64,000 nucleotides of DNA from Nocardioides sp. zg-1228 (GTDB lineage: Bacteria; Actinomycetota; Actinomycetes; Propionibacteriales; Nocardioidaceae), in contig NZ_CP070961.1 of NCBI RefSeq assembly GCF_017086465.1, forward strand, positions 1,364,001-1,428,000. Reading direction: 5' to 3'. The stretch's first letter is position 1; each line of letters opens with the position of its first letter. Below, piece by piece: positions 3,564 to 64,000 of the stretch. The position numbers and the translations under genes are program-made. Under the pieces are notes generated by a model. It was not told the origin of the DNA. It worked only from the letters and a program-made list of their open reading frames with translations, and did not search any database.

Positions 3564-5981
3564 TCAGCGGTTGTCGACCACCAGGGCCGCGAGCCGCGCC
3601 CGCGTGTTGATGTCGAGCTTGCGGTAGATGTGGGTCAGGTGCGCGTCGACGGTCCGCGGTGAGACGTAGAGCTCCTGGGCGATCTGGCGGCTCGTCAGGC
3701 CGTGGGCGACCCGGTCGGCGACCTGCCGCTCAGCGGGGGTCAGGACGTCGAGCACCGAGGGGCGCAGGGACGGCGCGCCGACGAAGATCTCCGTCACGAG
3801 CGCGACGGCGTGCGCGGACAGGTCGTCGCCGTCGAGCCACTCCGCGGGCGGCCGGCTCGCGGGCACCACGTCATAGTCGGCGGAGTAGCCCCAGCGCACC
3901 GCCATCCGCGGGCTGCGCAGCGCCAACGCCGCCGCCGCGAGCGAGCGCGCCTCGGGCAACTCGCGTGCCCGGGCCACGCCCGCGAGGCCGTCGAGCACGT
4001 CGGCGGCGCGGAGCGGCAGGCGCATCGTGGCGCACTGCTCGAGCGCGGTGAGGTAGGTGGTGGTGGCCTGGTCGAGGTCGTCGAGCTGGACCAGCGCCCG
4101 CCCGAGCAGCAGCCGGGCGTCGACGCCGTCGCGTCCGAGCCGCGCCGAGTCGGCCAGCGCGACGACGTCGGCGGCGAGTCCGGCGGCCTGGCGCGCGTCG
4201 CCCCGGGCCAGCAGCTCGCGGCCGTCCTGGGCCAGCACCGGCAGCCGCACCGCCCAGGGCAGCGTCTCGCGCACGACGTCGCTGGCCACCCAGGTCGGAT
4301 CGAGACCGCGCAGCAGTGTCTCGGCCAGCAGCCCGACCCGGTCCTCGGCCAGCTCGCGGGCCTCGACGACGACCGCGCGGGTGCCGGCGACGGCCTCGGC
4401 GATGCGGCCCTGCTCGAGCGCGATGCGGGCCAGGATGGTGCGCGCGGACAGGTCGATCCAGCGCTCGTCGCGGGTCGTACGAGACGGCATCGCGTCCGCC
4501 ACGGCCCGGGTGGCCTCGGCGAAGCGGCCCTGCGAGGCGTAGAGGTCGGCCAGCGTGCGCGTGGCCTGCCGGCCGATCGACCCGTCGGGGTCGAGCTCGA
4601 TGGCGCGCCTGGCCTCGGACTCCGCGCTCGCCAGGTCGCCGGCGTCGAGGTGCATCTCGGCGCGGATCGAGGCCGTCTTGGCGAGCTGCTCCTCGGGACG
4701 GGGGGCCGACGAGGCGTGCTGGTCGGCGCGCTCGAGCAGCCACAGCCCCTCGTAGGTGCCGCGCATCTCGGAGGCGGCGATGCCCGCGCGACGCGCCACC
4801 TGCGCGCCGATGGCGGGCGGGCCGTCGCCGCTCGCGAGGGCCCCCTCGAGGATCTCGACGGCCTCCCGGGCGCGCATCGAGGTGTAGAGGGAGGAGAAGA
4901 TGCGGTTGGCCACGGAGTAGCCCTCGGCCCGGGTGGCCGGGTCGGCGCACGCGGCGAGGACCGCCTGGCGCATCGCGGGCAGGTCGCCGAGCCACTCGGC
5001 GTCGGCCGCGCCGTAGTTGTCGTGGGCGGGCGCGTGCGCCTGGGCCCAGGCGAGGAGGCCGGTGCGGACCGCCGCCTCGTCGTCGGGCCCGGCGAGGACG
5101 CGGGCCCGACCGCGGATGGGCGAGAGCATGTCGAAGCGACCCTGGGCGTCGACCTCGAGGAGGCTGCGGCGCACCAGGTTGCCGGCGAGCTCGGCGGCCT
5201 CGGGCACCGGCACGTCGAGCACCTGCGCGAGCACCCCGAGCCCGACGCCGAAGTCGAGCAGGCCGATGCGGCGCAGCGCGGTGGCGCTGGCGGGGTCGAG
5301 GAGGTCGTGGGCGGAGTCGACGGCCTGGTCCAGGCTCACGGTGGCCATCGCGTTGCTGAGCCCGACGAGCGCCGACTGCACGGCGACCTGCTCGATCAGC
5401 AGCGGCAGGCCACCCGTGGCGCGCAGCAGGCGGCGCACCTCGGGCGCCTGCACGTCGAGGTCGACCCGCTGGCCCCCGGCCGCGCGGATGCGCTGGAGGA
5501 ACAGCTCCACCGCGGGTCCCTCGAGCGGCCCGCGGACAGAGGGGACGGGCAGCGGTCCGACCCGGACGACCGACTCGGCGGGTTGGCCGGCCGTCGTCAG
5601 CGCCGTGACGACCACGCGCGCGTCGGTGGTGCCATCCAGCACCGACTGCAGCACCGGGCCGGCGCCGGTGGTGTCGAGGTCGAGCCCGTCGAGCACGAGC
5701 AGGCAGTCGCGGCCGTCGACCGCGCGCCCCAGCGCGCCGACCAGCGAGTCGCCCGGGGCGGTCTCCGCGCCCAGGCTCTCGAGCGCCGCCACGAGCACCT
5801 CGTCGAGGGTGCGGAGGGTGCGCGCGTCGACCCAGGACACGGGCACGCCGGCGGCCGCGTGGCGCACCAGCAGGGTCTTGCCGCTGCCGGGCGGGCCCAC
5901 GACCGTCACCCACCGCGCCTCCCCGAGGGCCTCCTCCAGTGCTCGCTGGACGTCGTCGCGACCGAGACAGGGGGACAGCAC
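3564..5981 (-). CDS. large ATPase-TPR-LuxR transcriptional regulator (LAL type)
   Basis: This 805-residue regulator has a P-loop NTPase module at the start (Walker A GPPGSGKT, residues 29-36; Walker B-like CLLVLDGLD), a long alpha-helical TPR-like middle rich in Ala and Leu, and a C-terminal LuxR/FixJ helix-turn-helix (about 745-800) with LTPAERQVADRVAHGLTSRQIA and VSPRTVDAHLTHIYRKL. LAL/MalT-type proteins bind ATP and an inducer and then activate promoters; the inducer here is unknown. The start is the GTG at 5981, and the minus-strand TAGATT box 7 nt upstream suggests a leaderless mRNA. No obvious target gene adjoins it. Family call firm, targets unknown. Confidence 0.9.
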   Translation of the reverse strand: MLSPCLGRDDVQRALEEALGEARWVTVVGPPGSGKTLLVRHAAAGVPVSWVDARTLRTLDEVLVAALESLGAETAPGDSLVGALGRAVDGRDCLLVLDGLDLDTTGAGPVLQSVLDGTTDARVVVTALTTAGQPAESVVRVGPLPVPSVRGPLEGPAVELFLQRIRAAGGQRVDLDVQAPEVRRLLRATGGLPLLIEQVAVQSALVGLSNAMATVSLDQAVDSAHDLLDPASATALRRIGLLDFGVGLGVLAQVLDVPVPEAAELAGNLVRRSLLEVDAQGRFDMLSPIRGRARVLAGPDDEAAVRTGLLAWAQAHAPAHDNYGAADAEWLGDLPAMRQAVLAACADPATRAEGYSVANRIFSSLYTSMRAREAVEILEGALASGDGPPAIGAQVARRAGIAASEMRGTYEGLWLLERADQHASSAPRPEEQLAKTASIRAEMHLDAGDLASAESEARRAIELDPDGSIGRQATRTLADLYASQGRFAEATRAVADAMPSRTTRDERWIDLSARTILARIALEQGRIAEAVAGTRAVVVEARELAEDRVGLLAETLLRGLDPTWVASDVVRETLPWAVRLPVLAQDGRELLARGDARQAAGLAADVVALADSARLGRDGVDARLLLGRALVQLDDLDQATTTYLTALEQCATMRLPLRAADVLDGLAGVARARELPEARSLAAAALALRSPRMAVRWGYSADYDVVPASRPPAEWLDGDDLSAHAVALVTEIFVGAPSLRPSVLDVLTPAERQVADRVAHGLTSRQIAQELYVSPRTVDAHLTHIYRKLDINTRARLAALVVDNR

Positions 5982-5988
5982 GGGTACG

Positions 5989-5994
5989 AATCTA
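5989..5994 (-). promoter_or_regulatory. putative -10 box of the LAL regulator
   Basis: TAGATT on the minus strand lies 7 nt from the GTG at 5981, which is leaderless spacing. No ribosome-binding site is visible between the box and the start. Confidence 0.5.
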
Positions 5995-6123
5995 TCGCCC
6001 CCGGGGACCGCAGTTAGGTAGGACTACGGATGCCGGGCCGGCCTCCGTCGCGGGAGGGTTGGCGTACGCCGAGGGGACGGGGCCGCGCGAGGGGATGGCC
6101 CCGCCGCCCACCGGCCGCTTGTC

Positions 6124-6167
6124 AGGGCAGGTCGCACATCGTCGGGGGTCGATGGGCGACCTGCCCT
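6124..6167. repeat. long stem-loop in the LAL regulator/membrane protein intergenic region
   Basis: A 12-bp perfect inverted repeat (AGGGCAGGTCGC at 6124-6135, complement at 6156-6167) continues after one mismatch into a further 5-bp stem (CATCG/CGATG), leaving an 8-nt loop. There is no T-run on either side, so it is not a standard terminator. It sits about 130 bases upstream of the regulator start and about 75 bases before the -10 box of the next gene. Confidence 0.6.
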
Positions 6168-6243
6168 CGCAGGTCTCGCCCCGCCTTCGCGGGCCGCCGC
6201 GAACGGGCGTCGGATCCGGTGCGGGCACGTTGTCGCGACTGCG

Positions 6244-6249
6244 TAGGCT
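6244..6249 (+). promoter_or_regulatory. putative -10 box, leaderless
   Basis: TAGGCT is followed by 6 nt and then the ATG at 6256. This matches the TANNNT-plus-6/7 spacing of leaderless actinobacterial genes, and there is no Shine-Dalgarno sequence. Confidence 0.55.
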
Positions 6250-6255
6250 TGAGCC

Positions 6256-7017
6256 ATGGAACTCGTGCTCGTGCTGATCGTCCTCGGCGGGCTCACCGCG
6301 GTCGCGGTCGCCGCGGGGCGGACGGGCAAGAAGCGTGAGCTGGCGCGCGCCGAGGCGGAGGTCGCCCCCGTGAGGAGGCTCGCCGAGGAGGACGTCACCG
6401 CCCTCGGCGTGGAGCTGCAGGACCTCGACATCGACCTGGCCGGCGAGCCGCTCGACGCCGGTGCCAACGCCGACTACCAGCGCGCCCTCGACTCCTACGA
6501 GTCGGCCAAGACGGCTGCCGCGGGACTCACCCGCGCCGAGGACGTCAAGCACGTCACCGAGATCCTCGAGGACGGGCGCTACGCGATGGCGTGCGTGCGA
6601 GCGCGGGTCGCGGGCGAGCCGCTGCCCCAGCGCCGCCCTCCGTGCTTCTTCGACCCCCGGCACGGCCTGTCGGTCGCCGACGTTCCGTGGACCCCGCCCG
6701 GCGGCGCCCCGCGCGACGTGCCGGCCTGCGCGCTCGACATCGAGCGGGTGCGGGCCGGGGCCGAGCCCGACATCCGCAAGGTGATGGTCGGCTCGCGGCG
6801 CGTGCCCTACTGGCAGGGCGGGCGCGCCTACCAGCCCTACGCCCAAGGCTACTTCGGTGCCTTCTCGCCGATGGACTGGATGTTCATGGGCATGCTGTTC
6901 GGGGGCGGCTTCGACGGCCTCGGTGAGGGGATCGGGGCGATCGGTGAGGGGATCGGCGACCTGTTCGGCGGCATCGGCGACGGCATCGGCGACCTCTTCG
7001 ACGGCTTCGACTTCTGA
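6256..7017 (+). CDS. hypothetical membrane-anchored protein with Gly-rich repetitive C-terminus
   Basis: Unrecognised 253-residue protein. Residues 1-21 (MELVLVLIVLGGLTAVAVAA) form one membrane helix, followed by basic residues (GRTGKKR) that favour a cytoplasmic remainder. A charged helical region (about 25-115) follows, then a Pro-rich section (PPCFFDPRHG, TPPGGAP) and an aromatic stretch (YWQGGRAYQPYAQGYFGAF). The end is a short-period repeat with units such as GIGAIGEGIGDLF and GIGDGIGDLF, finishing DGFDF. The pattern of Gly with Ile or Leu at regular spacing recalls glycine-zipper helices. It stands alone between a regulator and a hydrolase. Coding use matches its neighbours, so the gene is likely real. 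Confidence 0.8.
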   Translation: MELVLVLIVLGGLTAVAVAAGRTGKKRELARAEAEVAPVRRLAEEDVTALGVELQDLDIDLAGEPLDAGANADYQRALDSYESAKTAAAGLTRAEDVKHVTEILEDGRYAMACVRARVAGEPLPQRRPPCFFDPRHGLSVADVPWTPPGGAPRDVPACALDIERVRAGAEPDIRKVMVGSRRVPYWQGGRAYQPYAQGYFGAFSPMDWMFMGMLFGGGFDGLGEGIGAIGEGIGDLFGGIGDGIGDLFDGFDF

Positions 7018-7091
7018 GTCCGGTCACCACCCGCACCGGCCGGCGAAGGGTCGGTGGCGGGCGGTCGAGCGGGGTGCGTCAGGATGGCCGC

Positions 7092-7859
7092 GTGAGCCTG
7101 CACCGCACCGAGCTCGGTGAGTCCGGACCCCGCGTCGTGTTCTGCCACGGACTCTTCGGCCAGGGCAAGAACTGGACGCAGGTCGCGAAGGCGCTCAGCG
7201 CCGACCACCGCGTCCTGCTGCTCGACATGCCCAACCACGGGCGGTCGTCGTGGACCGAGCGCTTCGACTTCCTCGAGCTGGCCGACCTCGTCGCCGCCGA
7301 GCTCGGCGACGAGCCGGTCGCCCTGGTCGGGCACTCGATGGGCGGCAAGATCGCGATGTGCGTCGCGCTGCGGCACCCCGAGCTCGTCGACCGGCTGGCG
7401 GTCGTCGACATCGCCCCGGTGGCGTACGAGAGCGGGCGGGAGTTCGTCGGCTACATCGAGACGATGCGCGCCCTCGACCTCGGCTCGCTCGAGCGCCGCG
7501 ACCAGGCCGAGGCCGCCCTCGCGGAGGCGGTGCCCAGCCCGACGGTGCGCGGGTTCCTGCTGCAGAACCTGCGCCGCACCGACGACGGCTGGCACTGGCA
7601 GGTCAACCTCGAGCTGCTGGGCGAGCACATGGACCAGCTCGTCGGCTGGCCCGACGAGGAGCTCGGCGACGCGACGTACGACGGGCCGGTGCTGTGGGTC
7701 GGCGGCGCGCGCTCGGACTACATCTCCGACGAGCACGCCGCCGAGATGGACCGCCGGTTCCCGCGCAACCGCCGGGTCCTGGTCAAGGGCGCCGGGCACT
7801 GGGTGCACTCCGAGCAGCCGGAGGTCTTCCTCGAGGTGCTGCGGCGCTTCCTCGCCTGA
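7092..7859 (+). CDS. alpha/beta-fold hydrolase
   Basis: This 255-residue serine hydrolase resembles the YbfF/acyl-esterase branch. It shows the oxyanion strand VVFCHGLFGQGKNW, the loop DMPNHGRSSW, the nucleophile elbow VGHSMGG, an acid-strand block VLWVGGARSDY and the catalytic His in GAGHWVHSEQPEVF. It should cleave ester or thioester substrates in the cytosol; no signal peptide is visible and the substrate is unknown. The GTG at 7092 was chosen because AGGA lies 7 nt upstream; an in-frame GTG at 7074 would add six residues without homology. The next gene on the opposite strand converges on it 12 nt away. Confidence 0.9.
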   Translation: MSLHRTELGESGPRVVFCHGLFGQGKNWTQVAKALSADHRVLLLDMPNHGRSSWTERFDFLELADLVAAELGDEPVALVGHSMGGKIAMCVALRHPELVDRLAVVDIAPVAYESGREFVGYIETMRALDLGSLERRDQAEAALAEAVPSPTVRGFLLQNLRRTDDGWHWQVNLELLGEHMDQLVGWPDEELGDATYDGPVLWVGGARSDYISDEHAAEMDRRFPRNRRVLVKGAGHWVHSEQPEVFLEVLRRFLA

Positions 7860-53444: not shown

Positions 53445-56393
53445 TCAGCGGCCGAAGGCCTGGAACTCCGTCGCCCGCACGTTGAGGTCCTGGTCGCTGC
53501 CTGCCGAGCAGTCGCTCACCGCACGCGGGTCCTGGTCCTGCTCACCGGCGTAGTCGGGCCCGCCGGTGCACTGGTTGGTGACGACCTGGAGCCACAGGTG
53601 GGTCGCCTTGGTGCGCCGGATGTCGAACGAGCGGAGGATCAGGTCCGGCGCCCGCGGCCGGGGGGCCGTGGCCGGGAACGCGTCCTCCGGGCTGACGAAC
53701 ACCCGGGTGAACTCGTCCTGCTCGTCGCAGTCGACCCCGCGGGCGATGGAGCACGACCAGACCTCGAACTGCCGCAGGGCCGAGTAGCGGCTCTGGCTCG
53801 GCTCGGCCGGGGTGCCGTCGGGGTTGGTCCGGGCCGGTCGCAGGTGGGTGCTGACCTGCACCCGCCGCACGTCCTGGCGCTTGGTGCCGGCCAGGTCGAC
53901 GATCACGTGCTGCTCCGCGACCGGAGCGCCCAGGGCCGCCCACTGGGTGCCCTCCTCGTCGTCGACGAGGCTGACCAGGTCGGTGCCCGTGCCCTCGACC
54001 GCCGCGCCGTTGGTGACGGACGCCAGGTTGGTGTCCATCCGTGGCTTGAGGGTCTTGGCCCGGCCGGCGGCGAACGCCGTCAGCGGGATGCGGGCGTGGC
54101 CGTGCCCGGGGGCGCGGGCCACGAACTCGTAGTTGCCCGGCACCAGCTCCACCCGGTTGGGCAGCGCCGTGGTCGGGTCGGTGTCGGCCACCGGCACGGC
54201 CCGTGCCTGGTAGTGGCCCACGAAGAGCTGGGCTCCGCGCACCAGGCGACCCTGCTCGTCGCGCGGCGCGAAGGTGACCGCCGACTCGTCGGCGTAGGCC
54301 GAGCGGAAGCTCGGCACCGGGTCGGCGTCGGCGTTGCCGGCGCTGGTGGCACCCTCGCCGAGGCCGCGACGGGCGAAGGCGTTCCAGAGGATGTCCTGGT
54401 TGGCCCCGTTGAAGCGGAGCAGGTCGGCGGCCAGCATCGCGTTGCGGGAGTCGACCTGACTGACCTGGCTGTTGGCCATCAGGAGGAACGAGTCGAACAC
54501 CAGCTGCATCCAGCGCCGGTTGCCCGGGCACCCGCTGACCGGTGTCTGGCCGTTGGCGCACGACTTGTTGAGGGCCGCGTCGCCGGCACCGTAGCGATCG
54601 ATGAAGGCCTGCCGGATGTCGAAGTTGGTCGCGGTCCAGATCTCGCCGTCGGCGTGCACCTGCGGGCCGGTGACGTCGTAGCCGATGTCGGTGTAGTTGA
54701 GCGGGCTGCGGCTCATGTTGTAGTTGCGGATGCCGGCCACCGGGTCGCCGGTCGTGTACTGGCCGATCGTGAAGGCCTGGAGACCGGAGGCGGCGTAGCC
54801 GTGCTCGTGGAGGTACTCCATGGCCAGCTGGTCGCTCCAGCTCTCGCTCATGCCCTGCGGCGAGCTGACGCCGCCGTTGGGGCCGGCGATCATCCGGTTG
54901 CTGATCGCGTGGCCGTACTCGTGGCCGATGACGCTCATGTCGTAGTCGCCGTCGACGCACGGGGCGTAGAAGGAGCCGGCGATCGGCTGCCACATGTACA
55001 TGTTGGTGATCGGCGCCTGGCCGTCGGGCGGGGTGAACTGGTTGGCGTTGTTGCGCGCGGCGAAGGTCGGCGGACCGCCCGAGATCGCGCCTGCCTGGGC
55101 GTTGCCCTGCTCGTAGTCGTTGCCGAGGCCACCCCGGCCGAGGTTGTCCTTCTGCATGTTCCAGGTGCTCTCGACGAACCCGAGGTGGTAGGACCAGTCG
55201 TGCATGCGGTTGTGCATCGCGAAGAGGTTGGCGCGGGCGGCGTCGAGGTCGACGTTGTCGGGGGACCCGAACGTCGCGGGGTTGCAGCCCTCCTCGTACC
55301 ACTGGTTGGTCCACGGGTAGGCGTAGTCACGGGTCGGCGACGCGGTCGCCGTCTCGGTGCCGACGGTCCGCGAGTTGTTGCTGTTGCGGTTCTCGACCGC
55401 GATGGCGTTGTTGCCCAGCGTGGTGAACGTCGGCAGGTTGGTCGCCGGGTCGACGTCCCAGGGCAGCGAGGCGCTGGTGCCGACCGTCTCCTCGCAGCCG
55501 GTCAGCGGCGTCCAGCACCACGTCGCCCGGGCGTCGCGGGAGGAGTAGTCCACCGGCGGGCTGCTCGGGAACACCTCCCACTCGGGGTTGTCGGCGTCGT
55601 GGTCGACGAGGTCCTCGCGGACCAGCACCTCGCCGGAGCGGGCGTCGACGTAGCTGGCGAAGCCGACGGCCTCGTCGCCCTCGGAGCGGAGCACCACCTG
55701 GAAGGCGGCGCGCGCCGCGGCGCCCGGCACAGGCACCGCGACCTCGGTCGTGCCGAGCACGACGGGCGCGGCGATGCCGGCGTCGCGGGCGGCGAGCCGC
55801 TCGGCGTCGGCCGCCGTCAGGGTGGCCGGAGCCGGCGCGGCCGCGTCGCGTGCCAGCGACGAGCTGACGTAGAGCACCTTGCCGTTGCGGAGGCCCACGG
55901 CGGCGATGCCGTCGACGCCCGCCGCGAGGTCGCCGAACTGCTGGCGCACGATCACCACGTCGGCGTCCTCGCCCAGCGGGCGGCTGGCGAGCACCTCGAC
56001 GGACTCGGCGGCCCGGGCGGTGAGGCCCAGGACGTCGCGGGACCCGGCGAGGAACGCGAGCGCGGCCGCCTCGGGGTCGGCGGGAAGCCCCGTGGCGAGG
56101 GGCGCGTCCGTGGCCATCAGCACGGCCGGCGTGCCGAGCTTGTTCCACCGGGCCGTGGCGTCGAGGTCCGCGGCAGCGGACCGCTGCTTCGCGGTCGGCG
56201 CGGCCCGGCCGTCGCGGACGTCCTTGTCGCGGGAGGTGGAGTCCTCTCCCTGGAACCCGGCGCCGGCGCCGGGCGGACCCCCTGGTGGTGGGCCGGCCGA
56301 GGAGGCCGGCGAGGCGAACGGTGCGAGAGCTGCTGCCAGGGAGAGCGTCACGAGGGCAGCGCCGACTCCTCCGACCCGAGAACTGAGGTGCAT
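53445..56393 (-). CDS. secreted M36 (fungalysin-type) metallopeptidase
   Basis: A 982-residue extracellular protease. It begins with a signal peptide (MHLSSRVGGVGAALVTLSLA, then ALAPFASPASSA). A propeptide-like FTP/PepSY region (about 60-300) follows. The catalytic domain has the gluzincin motif HEYGH (residues 491-495), in IGHEYGHAISNRMIAGPNGG, and the third zinc ligand Glu517 in SESWSD. The C-terminal part (about 850-975) has a discoidin/F5-8-like fold with VIVDLAGTKRQDVRRVQVS and paired Cys residues. M36 enzymes degrade extracellular protein. The ATG at 56393 has GAAGGGA upstream. It diverges from leuS. Confidence 0.93.
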   Translation of the reverse strand: MHLSSRVGGVGAALVTLSLAAALAPFASPASSAGPPPGGPPGAGAGFQGEDSTSRDKDVRDGRAAPTAKQRSAAADLDATARWNKLGTPAVLMATDAPLATGLPADPEAAALAFLAGSRDVLGLTARAAESVEVLASRPLGEDADVVIVRQQFGDLAAGVDGIAAVGLRNGKVLYVSSSLARDAAAPAPATLTAADAERLAARDAGIAAPVVLGTTEVAVPVPGAAARAAFQVVLRSEGDEAVGFASYVDARSGEVLVREDLVDHDADNPEWEVFPSSPPVDYSSRDARATWCWTPLTGCEETVGTSASLPWDVDPATNLPTFTTLGNNAIAVENRNSNNSRTVGTETATASPTRDYAYPWTNQWYEEGCNPATFGSPDNVDLDAARANLFAMHNRMHDWSYHLGFVESTWNMQKDNLGRGGLGNDYEQGNAQAGAISGGPPTFAARNNANQFTPPDGQAPITNMYMWQPIAGSFYAPCVDGDYDMSVIGHEYGHAISNRMIAGPNGGVSSPQGMSESWSDQLAMEYLHEHGYAASGLQAFTIGQYTTGDPVAGIRNYNMSRSPLNYTDIGYDVTGPQVHADGEIWTATNFDIRQAFIDRYGAGDAALNKSCANGQTPVSGCPGNRRWMQLVFDSFLLMANSQVSQVDSRNAMLAADLLRFNGANQDILWNAFARRGLGEGATSAGNADADPVPSFRSAYADESAVTFAPRDEQGRLVRGAQLFVGHYQARAVPVADTDPTTALPNRVELVPGNYEFVARAPGHGHARIPLTAFAAGRAKTLKPRMDTNLASVTNGAAVEGTGTDLVSLVDDEEGTQWAALGAPVAEQHVIVDLAGTKRQDVRRVQVSTHLRPARTNPDGTPAEPSQSRYSALRQFEVWSCSIARGVDCDEQDEFTRVFVSPEDAFPATAPRPRAPDLILRSFDIRRTKATHLWLQVVTNQCTGGPDYAGEQDQDPRAVSDCSAGSDQDLNVRATEFQAFGR

Positions 56394-56761: not shown

Positions 56762-56765
<4 letters not shown>
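56718..56765 (+). CDS. short upstream ORF overlapping the leuS start
   Basis: ATG at 56718 opens a 15-residue frame ([15 protein letters not shown]) whose TGA overlaps the leuS ATG as ATGA. A GAGGGG element 7 nt before its start lies in the 3' arm of the terminator hairpin. It may be translated to couple ribosomes onto leuS, or be an accident of the sequence; no similarity to known peptides is seen. Confidence 0.4.
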
Positions 56766-59260
<2,495 letters not shown>

Positions 59261-59262
59261 GC

Positions 59263-59291
59263 GCGCGGCGCCGCCCGGAGCGGCGCCGCGC
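59263..59291 (+). terminator. hairpin after leuS
   Basis: GCGCGGCGCCG (59263-59273) pairs perfectly with CGGCGCCGCGC (59281-59291) around a 7-nt loop, 2 nt after the leuS stop codon. It directly abuts the -10 box of the next gene. Confidence 0.65.
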
Positions 59292-59292
59292 C

Positions 59293-59298
59293 TAGACT
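59293..59298 (+). promoter_or_regulatory. putative -10 box of the ATP-grasp gene
   Basis: TAGACT is followed by 6 nt and the ATG at 59305, so the mRNA is probably leaderless. Confidence 0.5.
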
Positions 59299-59304
59299 CG
59301 GCGG

Positions 59305-60213
59305 ATGGGTGCCGCCTCGGAGCGCACGACCATCCTCGTCACCGGTGCGGCCGGACCCGCGGGGCGGGCCCTCGGCGCGCAGGTCCTGGCGCGCGCCGAG
59401 CGCGGTGGTGGGCTGCGCCTGCTGGGGGTCGACCTCGCGCCGGCCCCCGTGCCCGGCTACGAGACGGTCCTGCCGGTGCCGGGCGCGCCCGACCCGGCGT
59501 ACGACGAGGACATGCGCGACCTGGTGTCTCGCCTCGACCCTGACCTCGTCGTCCCCACCGTGGCCGAGGAGCTGCCCCGGCTCGCCGTGCTCGGGCTCGC
59601 GGCGGGGATGGGCCCGGGACTGGTGCTCTCGGCGCCGGGCCCCGTCGCCGTCGCCGCGGACAAGCTGCTGACGATGTGGGCGCTGGCCGCGAGCGGCGTC
59701 GCGGTGCCTCCGCACGCCACCGTCGCCGAGGCCGGCTCCGCCGCCGACGCCGTGGCCTGGGGCGGCGGGCCCGTGGTGGTGAAGCCGCGGGTGAGCCGCG
59801 GTGGTCGCGGCGTGCACGTCGTCGAGGACGGTGGCGACCCGGTGTGGGACTCCCTCGACGCCACCTGGCTGGTCCAGGGCTACGCGCCGGGGGTGGAGTA
59901 CAGCCCCCAGGTCTACCGCTCACCGCACAGCGGCAGGTGCCGGGTCGTGGTGCTGCGCAAGACCGAGCTCACGCAGGGCCGGGTGGGCAACGCCGCGGCG
60001 GTCGAGAGACTCGGCGACGGTGCCGAGCCCGACGTCGAGGCGCTCGCCGTGCGTGCCGTGGAGGCACTCGACCTGGTCGGACCGGTCGACCTGGACGTAC
60101 GCAGGTCGAGCGACGGCACCCCCGTGGTGCTCGAGGTCAACAGCAGGTTCGGTGCGCTGTCCGCGCAGGCCCCGGAGCTCCTCGCCGACGTGCTTGCCGA
60201 GTGGACAGGGTGA
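59305..60213 (+). CDS. ATP-grasp domain protein (CarB-like)
   Basis: A 302-residue enzyme of the ATP-grasp superfamily, closest in layout to the carbamoyl-phosphate-synthase-like PylC group. The first 110 residues are a Rossmann-like preATP domain (ILVTGAAGPAGRALGAQV, then LDPDLVVPTVAEELPRLAVL). The ATP-grasp part has VAADKLLTMWALAASGVAVPP, GPVVVKPRVSRGGRGVHVV (the conserved Lys), ATWLVQGYAPGVEYSPQVY and PVVLEVNSRFGALSAQAPELL (metal-binding E-x-N). It should ligate a carboxylate to an amine or thiol. It leads the glycosyltransferase by 3 nt, so it is part of that operon. Confidence 0.85.
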   Translation: MGAASERTTILVTGAAGPAGRALGAQVLARAERGGGLRLLGVDLAPAPVPGYETVLPVPGAPDPAYDEDMRDLVSRLDPDLVVPTVAEELPRLAVLGLAAGMGPGLVLSAPGPVAVAADKLLTMWALAASGVAVPPHATVAEAGSAADAVAWGGGPVVVKPRVSRGGRGVHVVEDGGDPVWDSLDATWLVQGYAPGVEYSPQVYRSPHSGRCRVVVLRKTELTQGRVGNAAAVERLGDGAEPDVEALAVRAVEALDLVGPVDLDVRRSSDGTPVVLEVNSRFGALSAQAPELLADVLAEWTG

Positions 60214-60216
60214 CCC

Positions 60217-61494
60217 GTGGTCGCGTTCATGGCGGCGTTGGTCCTCGTGCTGCTCGTCCCGCTCGCGGTCGCCGGAGTCGTGCGCCTCGCGATGGTGCCG
60301 TTCGCGCTGGTCTTCGAGGTCCGGGCCCGGCGCAGCCGGTCCGGACGGGCCGGCTACGGCCCGATGTTCGCCGAGGCCCCCTCCCTGAGCGTGGTGGTGC
60401 CGGCCTTCGACGAGGCACGCGTCATCGACCAGTGCGTGCGCTCGATCGCGCGCAGCGACTACCCACGCCTCGAGATCGTGTGCGTCGACGACGGGTCGTC
60501 CGACGACACCTTCGCGCGGATGCGGCAGCTGGCCGCCGCACACCCCGGGATGGTGCGGGCGCTGCGGCAGGACAACGCCGGCAAGGGCGCCGCCCTCAAC
60601 ACCGGCATCGCCGCCGCCCGAGGCGAGGTCCTCGTGCTCGTCGACGCCGACGGGGTGTTCCGCCCCGACACGCTGGCCCGCTTGCTGCGGGGCTTCCGCA
60701 GCCCGCGGATCGGTGCGGTCTGCGGCAACGACAAGCCCGTCAACCTCGACCGGACGCTCACCCGCCTCCTCTCCGTCATCAGCCACGTCGGCACCGGCCT
60801 GATGCGTCGCGCCCTCGACGTGCTGGGCTGCCTGCCCGTCGTCTCCGGCAACATCGGCGCCTTCCGCCGTGACGTGCTCGAGCGGGTGGGTCCGCTGCGC
60901 ACGGACACGCTCGGCGAGGACCTGGAGCTGACCTGGCGGGTGCACGAGGCGGGCTTCCAGGTGGCGTTCGCCCCCGACGCGCTCGTGTACGCCGAGTCTC
61001 CCTCCACCCTGCGTGGCCTGTGGCGGCAGCGGGTCCGCTGGGCGCGTGGGCTGCTGCAGGCCACCGAGATGCACTGGTCGATGATCGGCAACCCGCGCTA
61101 CGGCGCGTTCGGCGTCTACCTGCTCTTCAACACCGTCACCCAGGTGATCGCCCCCTTCCTCCAGCTCGCAGCCGCGGTGAACGTGGGGTGGCTGGTCGCC
61201 GTGGACGGCTCCGGCTGGCTGCCCGGCACCTGGTGGTCGTGGGTGCTCCTGCTGGGGGTGCCGGCGTCGCTGGCGCTGCTGGCGCTCGCCCTCGCGCTCG
61301 ACCGGGCCGCCGATGACCTGCGCCACCTGTGGACCGTCCCGTTGTGGCCGCTCTACTCGACCCTGATGACCTTCGTCGTGCTCGATGCCGTCCGGCTCGA
61401 GCTCGGGAATGCGGAGAACCGATGGAACAAGCTGGAGCGGACCGGGACGGTGTCGGTGCGTGGCCTGAGCGACGACGATGGCCCTGGCTCCTGA
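60217..61494 (+). CDS. membrane glycosyltransferase, family 2 (IcaA/PgaC-like)
   Basis: A 425-residue processive-type GT2 with an N-terminal membrane helix (MAALVLVLLVPLAVAGVV), the cytosolic GT-A domain (about 55-285) and three C-terminal helices. Motifs are VVPAFDEARVI, VCVDDGSSDD (D91, D92), LVDADGVF (D143-D145), GEDLELTWR (E234-D235) and QRVRW (271-275) followed by ARGLLQATE. The Q-x-x-R-W motif marks processive synthases of beta-linked polymers such as poly-N-acetylglucosamine. The GTG at 60217 follows the ATP-grasp stop by 3 nt. It overlaps the next gene by 73 nt. Confidence 0.9.
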   Translation: MVAFMAALVLVLLVPLAVAGVVRLAMVPFALVFEVRARRSRSGRAGYGPMFAEAPSLSVVVPAFDEARVIDQCVRSIARSDYPRLEIVCVDDGSSDDTFARMRQLAAAHPGMVRALRQDNAGKGAALNTGIAAARGEVLVLVDADGVFRPDTLARLLRGFRSPRIGAVCGNDKPVNLDRTLTRLLSVISHVGTGLMRRALDVLGCLPVVSGNIGAFRRDVLERVGPLRTDTLGEDLELTWRVHEAGFQVAFAPDALVYAESPSTLRGLWRQRVRWARGLLQATEMHWSMIGNPRYGAFGVYLLFNTVTQVIAPFLQLAAAVNVGWLVAVDGSGWLPGTWWSWVLLLGVPASLALLALALALDRAADDLRHLWTVPLWPLYSTLMTFVVLDAVRLELGNAENRWNKLERTGTVSVRGLSDDDGPGS

Positions 61495-62666
61495 TCGTGG
61501 CCGGCATCGTGGTCACCTCGCTGGTGGCTGCGCTGGCGATCTCGCGGCCGTGGCAGTCGGGCGAGTCGGGCACGCCGCCCACGGCTGAGACGCCGCCGAC
61601 GATGCGCCCCGCGCAGCTCCCCGACCGGACCAGGTCGGTGAGCATCGACTTCGCGAGCGTCGTCGACCGGGACACCGACTGGGCGGCGGTGAACGCCCGC
61701 CTCGACGAGGCCGGGGCCAACGCGGTCGAGCTGAACGCGGGCCGGATCGAGTTCACCGCCTTCGACTGGGAGGCGCACCCCGACGCGGCCGCGGAGCCGG
61801 GCACCGACCACCTCACCCGCGCGGCCCGGGCGCTGCACCGGGCGGCGGACGGCTCGAACCGCCAGGTCGGTCTCATCGTCGACACGATGGCGCCGAACTG
61901 GCTGGCCGACCACCCGGAGGCTGCCGGGGTCGCCGCCGACGGTCGGCGGGCGGTCTACCAGGCCTCGGCGAGCGAGCTCGTCGACGGCGAGGTCGGCAGG
62001 CGCCTGGTGGACCTCGTCGGCACGCTGTGCGAGCGCTATCACCCAAGCCAGATCTCGATCACCGAGCTGTTCCTCAGCGACTTCACGTTCGGTGACGACG
62101 ACCTGCGGCTCTTCCGGCGGATGACCGGACTGCCCGACTGGCCCCGCGCCAGCGACGGGTCGATCAAGGAGGACGCGTCCAGCATCAAGGCCTGGCGGGC
62201 GGCGGTGATCGCCGACCTGCTCGCGCGGATGCGGGAGCGGATGGACGCGACCCGGGGCGGCGACGGGGCGCGCGTCGACCTCGCCATGGACGTACGGATC
62301 AACTGGAAGTACCCGGCCCGGGGCGACCTGGCCAGCGGGCACGAGTACGACGTCCTGCTCGGCGAGGTCGAGCGCCTGGTCCTGTGGGCCTACCTCTACC
62401 GCACCCGGAGACCGGCGGACGTCGAGCGGATACTCGGGCGCCTGGAGGCCGAAGGGCTCGACACGTCGCGGCTCACCGTGTCGGTCGGCCTGTGGGAGCG
62501 CCCGCCCGGACCGCCGGTCGGGCCGATCGACCTCGCGCCGTTCGTCGCCGCCCTGCGCGCGGCGGAGACCCACGGCATCACCTCGGTCAACGTCACGCCC
62601 CTGTCGCTGATGTCGCCGGAGTACTGGAGCGCCCTCGCGTCGGTGTGGAACCCGGACGGCACCTAG
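61422..62666 (+). CDS. membrane-anchored TIM-barrel-like glycoside hydrolase candidate
   Basis: A 414-residue protein. An N-terminal helix (about 20-39, PWLLIVAGIVVTSLVAALAI) anchors it; a Pro/Thr-rich linker (about 45-62) leads to a domain resembling the PgaB C-terminal/GHL TIM barrel: SVSIDFASVVDRDTDWAAVN, GANAVELNAGRIEFTAFDW, VGLIVDTMAPNWL, CERYHPSQISITELFLSDF and DLAMDVRINWKYP. Family is not certain. It is encoded inside the 3' end of the glycosyltransferase (ATG at 61422, GGAG upstream) and so probably modifies or cuts the polymer that enzyme makes. Its stop codon overlaps the convergent kinase gene. Confidence 0.72.
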   Translation: MEQAGADRDGVGAWPERRRWPWLLIVAGIVVTSLVAALAISRPWQSGESGTPPTAETPPTMRPAQLPDRTRSVSIDFASVVDRDTDWAAVNARLDEAGANAVELNAGRIEFTAFDWEAHPDAAAEPGTDHLTRAARALHRAADGSNRQVGLIVDTMAPNWLADHPEAAGVAADGRRAVYQASASELVDGEVGRRLVDLVGTLCERYHPSQISITELFLSDFTFGDDDLRLFRRMTGLPDWPRASDGSIKEDASSIKAWRAAVIADLLARMRERMDATRGGDGARVDLAMDVRINWKYPARGDLASGHEYDVLLGEVERLVLWAYLYRTRRPADVERILGRLEAEGLDTSRLTVSVGLWERPPGPPVGPIDLAPFVAALRAAETHGITSVNVTPLSLMSPEYWSALASVWNPDGT

Positions 62667-64000
62667 CGGGGAGGGGCGGCCTCGGGGTCTGCGGCGAGGG
62701 GTACGTCGGGCAGCCGGACGGTCACCTCGGTGCCACGCCCGGGCTCGCTGTCGATGACGAGCGTGCCCCGGTGGTCGGAGACCAGTGCCTGGACGAGCGT
62801 GAGGCCGAGGCCGACCCCGGCGATGTGGCGTCGCCGGGTGTCGCGCGTGCGGTAGAACGGCTGGGTGATCCGGCGCAGCTCGTCGGCGGTGATGCCGGTG
62901 CCGTCGTCGGCGACCCGGATCCGCACCCCCCGCTGCCCGTCGGGCGAGGGCTCGGCCACGACCTCGACGCGGACCTCGCCCCCGGCGTCGCTGTACTTGA
63001 TCGCGTTGGTGAGCAGGTTGTCGACGACCTGCCCGAGCCGCTGTGGGTCGGAGACGAGCGGCACGACCTCGTCGCCGGAGAGGGCCACCCTCACGTCCGC
63101 GGCCTCGGCCATGGGCCGCACGCTCGCGATCGCGGCGCGCGCGACCTGCACGGCGTCGACCTCCTCGGGCGACATCGGGTCGCCGGCGACGACGCGGGCG
63201 CTCATCAGCAGCTCGTCGACGAGGGACCGCAGGCGGCGGGCGTTGCGCGTCAGCACGTCGACGTACTCGCGCTGCTCGTCGGTGAGCCCACCGGGATCCA
63301 GCCGGAGCAGGTCGACGTAGCCGAGGATCGACACCAACGGGGTGCGCAGCTCGTGGCTGACCAGGCCGATGAGCTGCTCCTGGCGCCGCAGCTCCTCCTC
63401 GCGGTCGGTGACGTCGGTGGCGACGACGAGGTAGCCGCGCATCGGGTCGGGCTCGTCCGCGGGCCCGATGGACGGGCGGGACGTCACGACGTACTCGACC
63501 ATGCGCGGCGAGCTGCCGACGGAGCGGCGCCACAGGGACACGTGCGAGCCACCGTCGGCGGCCGCCCCGACCAGCTCGCCCAGCGAGGGGCCGTCGACCA
63601 GCTCGGTCAGGTCGGTGCCCCTCAGCTGCTCCCGCGGGACCTCGAAGAGGCGCTCGGCGCCGCTGCTCGCCGTGAGCAGCCGGCCCGTCTCGTCGGTGGC
63701 CATGATCGCCTGCTCGGTGGCGGCGAGCATGATGCTGCGCAACAGGTCGTAGGCGGCGAGGAGCTGGCGCTCCTGGCGCCGCGTGGTCTCCATGATCGCG
63801 TGGACATGGAGCATGACCGCGCCGATGAGCACGGCGTTGATCGTGCTGTGCAGTCCCGGGTAGAGACGGCCGGTCGTGAAGATCACCGGGACGAGGGACA
63901 CCACCACCACGCCGAGCAGCCCAGCCAGCAGCGGGCGGCCCCCGGGCGCGAGCGCCAGGCTCACTCCTGGCACGAAGAGCAGCATGATGACCGATCCCAT
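62663..64000 (-). CDS. PAS-containing sensor histidine kinase (5' end beyond window)
   Basis: The visible 445 residues, running from the window edge, contain two membrane helices at the start, a PAS domain (about 90-195: MATDETGRLLTASSGAERLFEV), the HisKA dimerisation helix with the phosphorylated His in GLVSHELRTPLVSILGYVDLL, and an HATPase domain with DNLLTNAIKYSDAGGEV (N box), RVADDGTGITADEL (G1) and VGLGLTLVQALV (G2). The first residue visible is a Met codon by chance; the gene most likely continues to the right. The partner response regulator is not in the window. It converges on the TIM-barrel gene with a 4-nt overlap. Confidence 0.9.
   Translation of the reverse strand: MGSVIMLLFVPGVSLALAPGGRPLLAGLLGVVVVSLVPVIFTTGRLYPGLHSTINAVLIGAVMLHVHAIMETTRRQERQLLAAYDLLRSIMLAATEQAIMATDETGRLLTASSGAERLFEVPREQLRGTDLTELVDGPSLGELVGAAADGGSHVSLWRRSVGSSPRMVEYVVTSRPSIGPADEPDPMRGYLVVATDVTDREEELRRQEQLIGLVSHELRTPLVSILGYVDLLRLDPGGLTDEQREYVDVLTRNARRLRSLVDELLMSARVVAGDPMSPEEVDAVQVARAAIASVRPMAEAADVRVALSGDEVVPLVSDPQRLGQVVDNLLTNAIKYSDAGGEVRVEVVAEPSPDGQRGVRIRVADDGTGITADELRRITQPFYRTRDTRRRHIAGVGLGLTLVQALVSDHRGTLVIDSEPGRGTEVTVRLPDVPLAADPEAAPPR

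Follow-up and report, generated by a model that had tools for sequence, protein, structure and literature searches.

The window analysed here is a 64,000-nucleotide (nt) stretch of Nocardioides sp. zg-1228 (G000:C1:1364001-1428000, from a genome of 4.05 Mb in a single contig), and our subject is a cassette of five genes that begins near the end of the window and runs past it. The order read from the window is leuS (56762-59260), an ATP-grasp ligase gene, a gene for a membrane family 2 glycosyltransferase (GT2), a gene for a barrel protein, and then convergent genes. The ATP-grasp gene (59305-60213, plus strand; 302 amino acids, aa), assigned from its open reading frame (ORF), a family match and a structural model, is followed after 3 nt by the synthase gene (60217-61494, plus strand; 425 aa), whose ORF and family match indicate a GT2 of the PgaC/IcaA type. 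The third gene (61422-62666, plus strand; 414 aa) encodes one membrane helix and a PgaB-like (beta/alpha)8 barrel, as judged from its ORF, a model and start conservation; the ORF was given as 61329/61422-62666, and with the ATG at 61422 it overlaps the GT2 gene by 73 nt. Facing it tail to tail, with 4 nt shared between the stop ends, is a PAS histidine kinase gene on the minus strand (62663-64000) that is interrupted by the window edge; the full gene (G000:C1:1426663-1428315, or L009:8663-10315) encodes 550 aa. Beyond the window, on the same minus strand, a gene for a receiver-PIG-L fusion (G000:C1:1428315-1429391, or L009:10315-11391; 358 aa) overlaps the kinase gene by 1 nt.

The compact arrangement of the first three genes and the kinase converging on them had been described in an initial annotation of the window, and both descriptions held. 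That annotation saw no separate deacetylase. This absence proved to be a window-edge artefact: the sequence stops within the kinase gene, so the predicted PIG-L de-N-acetylase that follows was missed.

The kinase and the receiver-PIG-L fusion

The kinase contains PAS, HisKA and HATPase_c domains. In the fusion protein, the receiver domain scored 80.9 bits against a Pfam cut-off of 30.2 (E 1e-22) and the PIG-L domain (PF02585) 79.0 bits against 28.2 (E 6e-22); no further Pfam family was found at E 0.01, and no DNA-binding domain was recognised. The phospho-acceptor D57 is present in all 18 fused proteins aligned, as expected of a response regulator, and D57, T85 and K107 are nearly invariant. 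In the PIG-L domain, H142, P143, D144 and D145 together with H237, D239 and H240 are invariant in 20 rows (18 fused and 2 unfused proteins), and the score and the HPDD and H-x-D-H motifs place the domain, by its sequence, in the PIG-L family. Among named families it comes nearest to BshB1, from bacillithiol synthesis, with 70.3 bits, under the cut-off of 182.5.

The receiver-PIG-L protein appears to be the output of the kinase. Because the fusion gene directly follows the kinase gene, the kinase is most likely part of the glycan system and not merely a gene beside it. Fusion to a receiver would also place the action of the PIG-L domain in the cytoplasm.

Synthase, barrel and ligase

The best NCBIfam model for the GT2 was PgaC_IcaA (TIGR03937), at 188.7 bits against a curated cut-off of 422.3, so the protein is not assigned as an equivalog. 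The same model was the best, though below cut-off, in 5/5 GT2 proteins compared with NCBIfam. Alignment by BLAST gave 33% identity to E. coli PgaC over 290 residues, which agrees with the comparison to IcaA/PgaC-like synthases made in the initial annotation. The window protein carries the motif QRVRW, of the QxxRW type, and QxxRW was found in 20/20 five-gene loci checked and in 24/24 GT2 proteins checked. With PgaC_IcaA as best, if sub-cut-off, model and with this motif, the enzyme probably polymerises a GlcNAc-type (N-acetylglucosamine) sugar. In the PDB it was best matched by 6yv7, whose entry names a family 2 glycosyl transferase; this archaeal enzyme makes a lipid-linked sugar.

A start of the barrel gene at 61422 is credible. 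At the matching position ATG (14) or GTG (1) was found in all 15 cassettes examined, the window included; the overlap with the GT2 gene was 73 nt in 11 of them, 70 in three and 76 in one, GGAG lay just 5' of the start in 12/15, and the frame from 61422 leads into the membrane helix. The likeness of these starts is due in part to the GT2 gene coding the same bases.

No Pfam or NCBIfam family matched the barrel protein at E 0.1, and comparison of its sequence with the PDB gave nothing below E 0.6 or no match at all. The AlphaFold model (predicted local distance difference test, pLDDT, 87; 16 sequences) shows a helix at residues 20-41 followed by a (beta/alpha)8 barrel. In Foldseek the top match was the Bordetella PgaB hydrolase (E 1.3e-11), with Cwp19 at rank 2 and E. 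coli PgaB at ranks 3-8. With a second aligner, PgaB chains took ranks 1-5 (Z 26.1-27.9, 317-328 residues aligned), above Cwp19 (Z 25.2) and other glycoside hydrolases (GH42 and GH35, 25.1 and lower), all of them only a few Z units behind. The predicted model thus has the fold of the PgaB/GH153 hydrolase domain, in line with the comparison to PgaB raised in the initial annotation, and the membrane helix suggests that the barrel acts outside the cell. Membership of GH153 was considered and not assigned, since comparing profiles gave no significant match to PgaB. E215, which follows barrel strand 4 as counted, is invariant in 16 rows and replaced by Asp in one row of another alignment; it is only a candidate for the counterpart of the catalytic Asp. 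According to PMC5933820, the PgaB hydrolase domain cleaves partly deacetylated poly-N-acetylglucosamine (PNAG), with D474 of the Bordetella protein as probable acid. A deacetylase domain of the PgaB/IcaB type was absent from the barrel protein (no Pfam match at E 0.1; the rest of the genome was not searched). Among viral models the barrel was best matched by BFVD A0A8S5Q971, a protein of 240 residues named PgaB from a phage (Siphoviridae sp. ctjOC2), with 26% identity, a TM-score of 0.84 of the target and E 2e-17; the best solved structure has a higher E-value, but from a different library.

The ligase matched ATP-grasp_3 of Pfam at 45.9 bits (cut-off 23.2), and its model (pLDDT 92) lies nearest to the solved structures 3vot, an L-amino-acid ligase, and 2pn1, a carbamoyl-phosphate-synthase-like protein; chains of acyl-CoA carboxylase and of D-Ala-D-Ala ligase rank only slightly lower. 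K120, K160, D264, E277 and N279 are invariant in 14/14 aligned rows, and presumably bind ATP and metal. Domain, conserved residues and fold are those of the ATP-grasp carboxylate-amine ligase class; the structural neighbours of the model suggest a chemistry and not a substrate.

Distribution and genomic setting

The barrel was found in 4/37 genomes of the genus (G000 included), in 23/391 genomes of the order (17 strong matches and 6 weak) and in 3/396 genomes of the phylum (G000 and two weak matches). Named genomes, scanned with one peptide pattern that misses distant relatives, contributed 15 barrel loci, from Krasilnikoviella, Isoptericola, Cellulomonas, Sanguibacter, Promicromonospora, Mumia, Micropruina, Microlunatus, Propionicimonas and Nocardioides. 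The 17 strong order loci and 11 named-genome loci left after removal of four duplicates make up the 28 barrel loci considered here. Weak matches (E > 1e-4) were left out, namely those of 6 of the 23 order genomes, one of which was also met in the genus search, and the two from the phylum. The order and phylum searches for the barrel scored four candidates per genome, and the phylum and class searches for receiver-PIG-L described below scored five, so absences in them are soft.

ATP-grasp, GT2 and barrel genes occurred together in 25/28 barrel loci, which is more than a chance association and substantiates the three-gene set proposed from the window; in one of these loci (L044) another gene, that for receiver-PIG-L, sits between GT2 and barrel. 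The triad is thus not a rare neighbour relation among relatives, nor is the barrel, by its predicted fold, unrelated to glycan-active barrels, so that neither of the two objections foreseen in the initial annotation applied. All five genes were present in 21/28 loci, counting L043, where the kinase is split over two frames. The five genes have been inherited together: in 20 of the 21 five-gene loci (L043 excluded because of its split kinase), pairwise distances of the five proteins correlated with r of 0.79-0.91. This comparison used joined domains, and two barrel and two ATP-grasp segments still exceed gene length; it replaced a version with segments cut at the first domain, in which the cutting had lowered r to 0.24-0.85.

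The PIG-L gene of L048 and L049 is unfused, encodes a hydrophobic N-terminus and heads the operon, and neither kinase nor receiver was found in these two loci. This suggests that the PIG-L protein is an enzyme of the pathway, to which the receiver adds a switch. L063, on a 7.3 kb contig, has the triad only; at 4521-7294 a tandem pair of barrel genes follows ATP-grasp and GT2, and the second runs off the contig. Solitary barrel genes lie near alpha/beta hydrolase genes in L051 (9354-13131) and L058 (7887-9991).

Outside the barrel clade, a receiver-PIG-L profile was run on 396 phylum and 355 class genomes. It found 6 phylum genomes and 11 class genomes besides G000, three of the latter being known cassettes. 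Plasmids held no receiver-PIG-L at E 1e-40. Fourteen new PIG-L loci resulted, 7 with the receiver fusion, and PIG-L, ATP-grasp and GT2 were jointly present in 10/14 (5/7 of the receiver-fused ones). These five (L074, L075, L121, L122 and L125) share one same-strand run in the order receiver-PIG-L, ATP-grasp, PHP-family protein and GT2; they belong to other families, and L074 and L075 lie outside the class of the window. A kinase was near four of the five, the exception being L122, which begins at a contig end. L075 has an extra DNA-binding response regulator alongside the kinase. Among the seven loci without a receiver match, ATP-grasp and GT2 were both present in L076, L077, L126, L127 and L128 and both absent from L078 and L079. 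L126 has a PHP protein as well, and a single stop interrupts its PIG-L frame. In L076, L127 and L128 a uridine diphosphate (UDP)-GlcNAc 2-epimerase adjoins PIG-L, GT2 and ATP-grasp, hinting that the product there may contain N-acetylmannosamine, and the ATP-grasp proteins of L127 and L128 bear HEAT repeats. By the occurrence of their genes, PIG-L, ATP-grasp and GT2 form a recurrent trio that is evidently older than the barrel.

In G000 the five genes occupy the gap between leuS and degV. A degV gene was found in 57/59 Nocardioides genomes searched, and 30 of these degV-bearing loci were compared at the leuS junction. The distance from the end of leuS to degV was 19 to 323 bp in 23/30, and at 6 of the 7 other junctions (L129-L134; 15 kb views) one or two genes intervene, matching none of the five; the seventh is that of G000. 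The junction thus seems to accept insertions. Of these inserts, the two scanned (L129 and L131) each hold an S8 peptidase gene. The cassette has its nearest relatives in three genomes that belong to a different genus within the family (barrel identity 76-80%), and the barrel was not detected in 33/37 genomes of its own genus, which suggests that the cassette arrived by transfer.

A putative -10 element, TAGACT (59293-59298, plus strand), lies 6 nt 5' of the ATP-grasp ATG and would belong to a promoter of the leaderless type. Of 16 cassettes compared, 12 have TANNNT 6 nt before the ATP-grasp start and in the remaining four CANNNT stands 3, 6 or 7 nt upstream of it, according to which start is taken (raw counts, no chance control), the pattern expected of a putative leaderless promoter. 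A GC-rich hairpin (59263-59291) falls in the stretch from leuS to the ATP-grasp gene; its reading as a terminator was dropped, as 12/200 shuffles fold equally well. Upstream of leuS, a gene for an M36 fungalysin-type metallopeptidase occupies 54003-56123 on the minus strand, in a frame that extends to about 53445.

Interpretation and comparison with known systems

We propose, with a probability of about 0.45, that the cassette is a PNAG-like exopolysaccharide module under signal control, for a sugar polymer of the biofilm type, in which phospho-gated deacetylation precedes acylation by the ATP-grasp enzyme. The membrane GT2 would polymerise a GlcNAc-type glycan and export it, and the membrane-anchored PgaB-like barrel would trim or bind the glycan outside. 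Control would run from the kinase, which would phosphorylate the receiver domain of receiver-PIG-L. Since this protein has no recognised DNA-binding domain, the signal may act directly on de-N-acetylation of an amino sugar and not on a gene. On the cytoplasmic side, the PIG-L domain would remove the N-acetyl group. The amine so freed would then be coupled by the ATP-grasp ligase to a carboxylic acid, possibly an amino acid, in an exchange of acetyl for acyl. With a PIG-L de-N-acetylase in the set, such an acylation gains a source of free amine.

Several observations weigh against this proposal. The GT2 scores far under the cut-off of its best model. PF14883 (GHL13) had no match in G000, with the E. 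coli control detected; hhalign of the barrel with PgaB gave non-significant E-values of 0.41 and 0.16, the latter over most of the domain; and under the second aligner's own rule the lowest PgaB row (26.1) ties with Cwp19 (25.2). The barrel occurs without the other four genes in the stretch examined of three of 28 loci (L050, L051 and L058, the last on a contig that ends 1.8 kb past the barrel gene), and no kinase was found in L044. Of the receiver-fused loci outside the barrel clade, L123 has a GT2 and no ATP-grasp gene beside receiver-PIG-L, and L124, where a kinase, a DNA-binding regulator and receiver-PIG-L are followed by two ABC transporter genes, lacks both GT2 and ATP-grasp. PIG-L enzymes are known, moreover, for acting on small GlcNAc conjugates, so a polymer product is not assured.

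This last point bears on a rather improbable alternative, that the product is a small glycolipid or glycoconjugate: the GT2 would make a GlcNAc-lipid, the PIG-L enzyme would deacetylate it as in the synthesis of glycosylphosphatidylinositol (GPI) or mycothiol, the ATP-grasp enzyme would add an amino acid, and the barrel would act on the exported product. A cytoplasmic location suits both steps, BshB1 is the nearest named family of the PIG-L domain, albeit below cut-off, and the role of 6yv7, the best PDB match of the GT2, points the same way; the uniform QxxRW motif, PgaC_IcaA as best (sub-cut-off) model in every GT2 so compared and the presence of a PgaB-like barrel speak for a polymer instead. 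The same synthase and barrel would also fit a plain PNAG-like system producing partly deacetylated poly-GlcNAc, with PIG-L in place of the PgaB/IcaB deacetylases and an ATP-grasp enzyme that only makes or activates a precursor, and the PgaB hydrolase does work on deacetylated polymer (PMC5933820). We think this unlikely, since the ATP-grasp gene accompanies GT2 in 25/28 barrel loci and 10/14 others, above what an occasional precursor gene would give, and an exported polymer would be hard to reach for a cytoplasmic deacetylase. That the kinase and receiver-PIG-L are a separate signalling pair adjoining an unrelated glycan operon by chance is very improbable and was already disfavoured: the two genes do lie on the strand opposite to the operon, and L044 has no detected kinase, but all five genes stay together in 21/28 loci with differing flanks, and in 5/7 other fused loci receiver-PIG-L runs on one strand with ATP-grasp and GT2.

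Beyond the five-gene module, we advance a broader and more tentative idea. The output of the two-component system may be chemistry and not transcription, with a phospho-gated de-N-acetylase and ATP-grasp re-acylation swapping the N-acyl group of a surface glycan on signal. The PIG-L/ATP-grasp/GT2 core would then be an old actinobacterial device with interchangeable extras (PgaB-like barrel, PHP protein, UDP-GlcNAc 2-epimerase), to which a receiver switch is often attached. If so, the range of enzymes under direct control of response regulators would extend to a de-N-acetylase, and an actinobacterial exopolysaccharide system would have N-acyl chemistry set by a sensor and a coat whose chemistry is changeable on demand. 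The cassette offers a defined set of five genes for testing this, and in it a PgaB-fold barrel stands apart from the deacetylase that normally accompanies it, next to one of cytoplasmic type instead.

Among the matches listed in the open-access literature (subscription papers being outside its scope), no paper describes a receiver-PIG-L fusion, those containing both terms merely listing the gene among others in the parts retrieved, and none describes an ATP-grasp and PIG-L gene set. The amidoligase systems of Iyer et al. 2009 are said to include ATP-grasp ligases in sugar and peptide operons. The survey PMC7112194 links the hydrolase domain to the pga operons of Gram-negative bacteria, the dual-domain cases in Lachnoclostridium and in Kitasatospora, an actinobacterium, being exceptions, and neither ATP-grasp nor PIG-L occurs in the main text of that survey. 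The deacetylases of PNAG systems are of another type and act outside the membrane.

With the PNAG systems pgaABCD and icaADBC the cassette shares a PgaC/IcaA-type synthase and a barrel with the PgaB hydrolase-domain fold; it differs in that its barrel lacks a deacetylase domain and in having a receiver-fused PIG-L protein, an ATP-grasp ligase and a kinase. The receiver-PIG-L switch is the most novel element of this otherwise PNAG-like system. In mycothiol and bacillithiol synthesis, an MshB/BshB deacetylase is followed by a ligase, and the logic is shared, in that a PIG-L enzyme de-N-acetylates a GlcNAc conjugate whose amine is then acylated. Unlike those pathways, the cassette has another type of ligase, a membrane GT2, kinase control and a barrel, and its PIG-L domain falls under the BshB1 cut-off. 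Response regulators with an enzymatic output are known from CheB, and like such regulators the protein described here joins a receiver to an enzyme and has no recognised DNA-binding domain, but its output is a predicted PIG-L de-N-acetylase.

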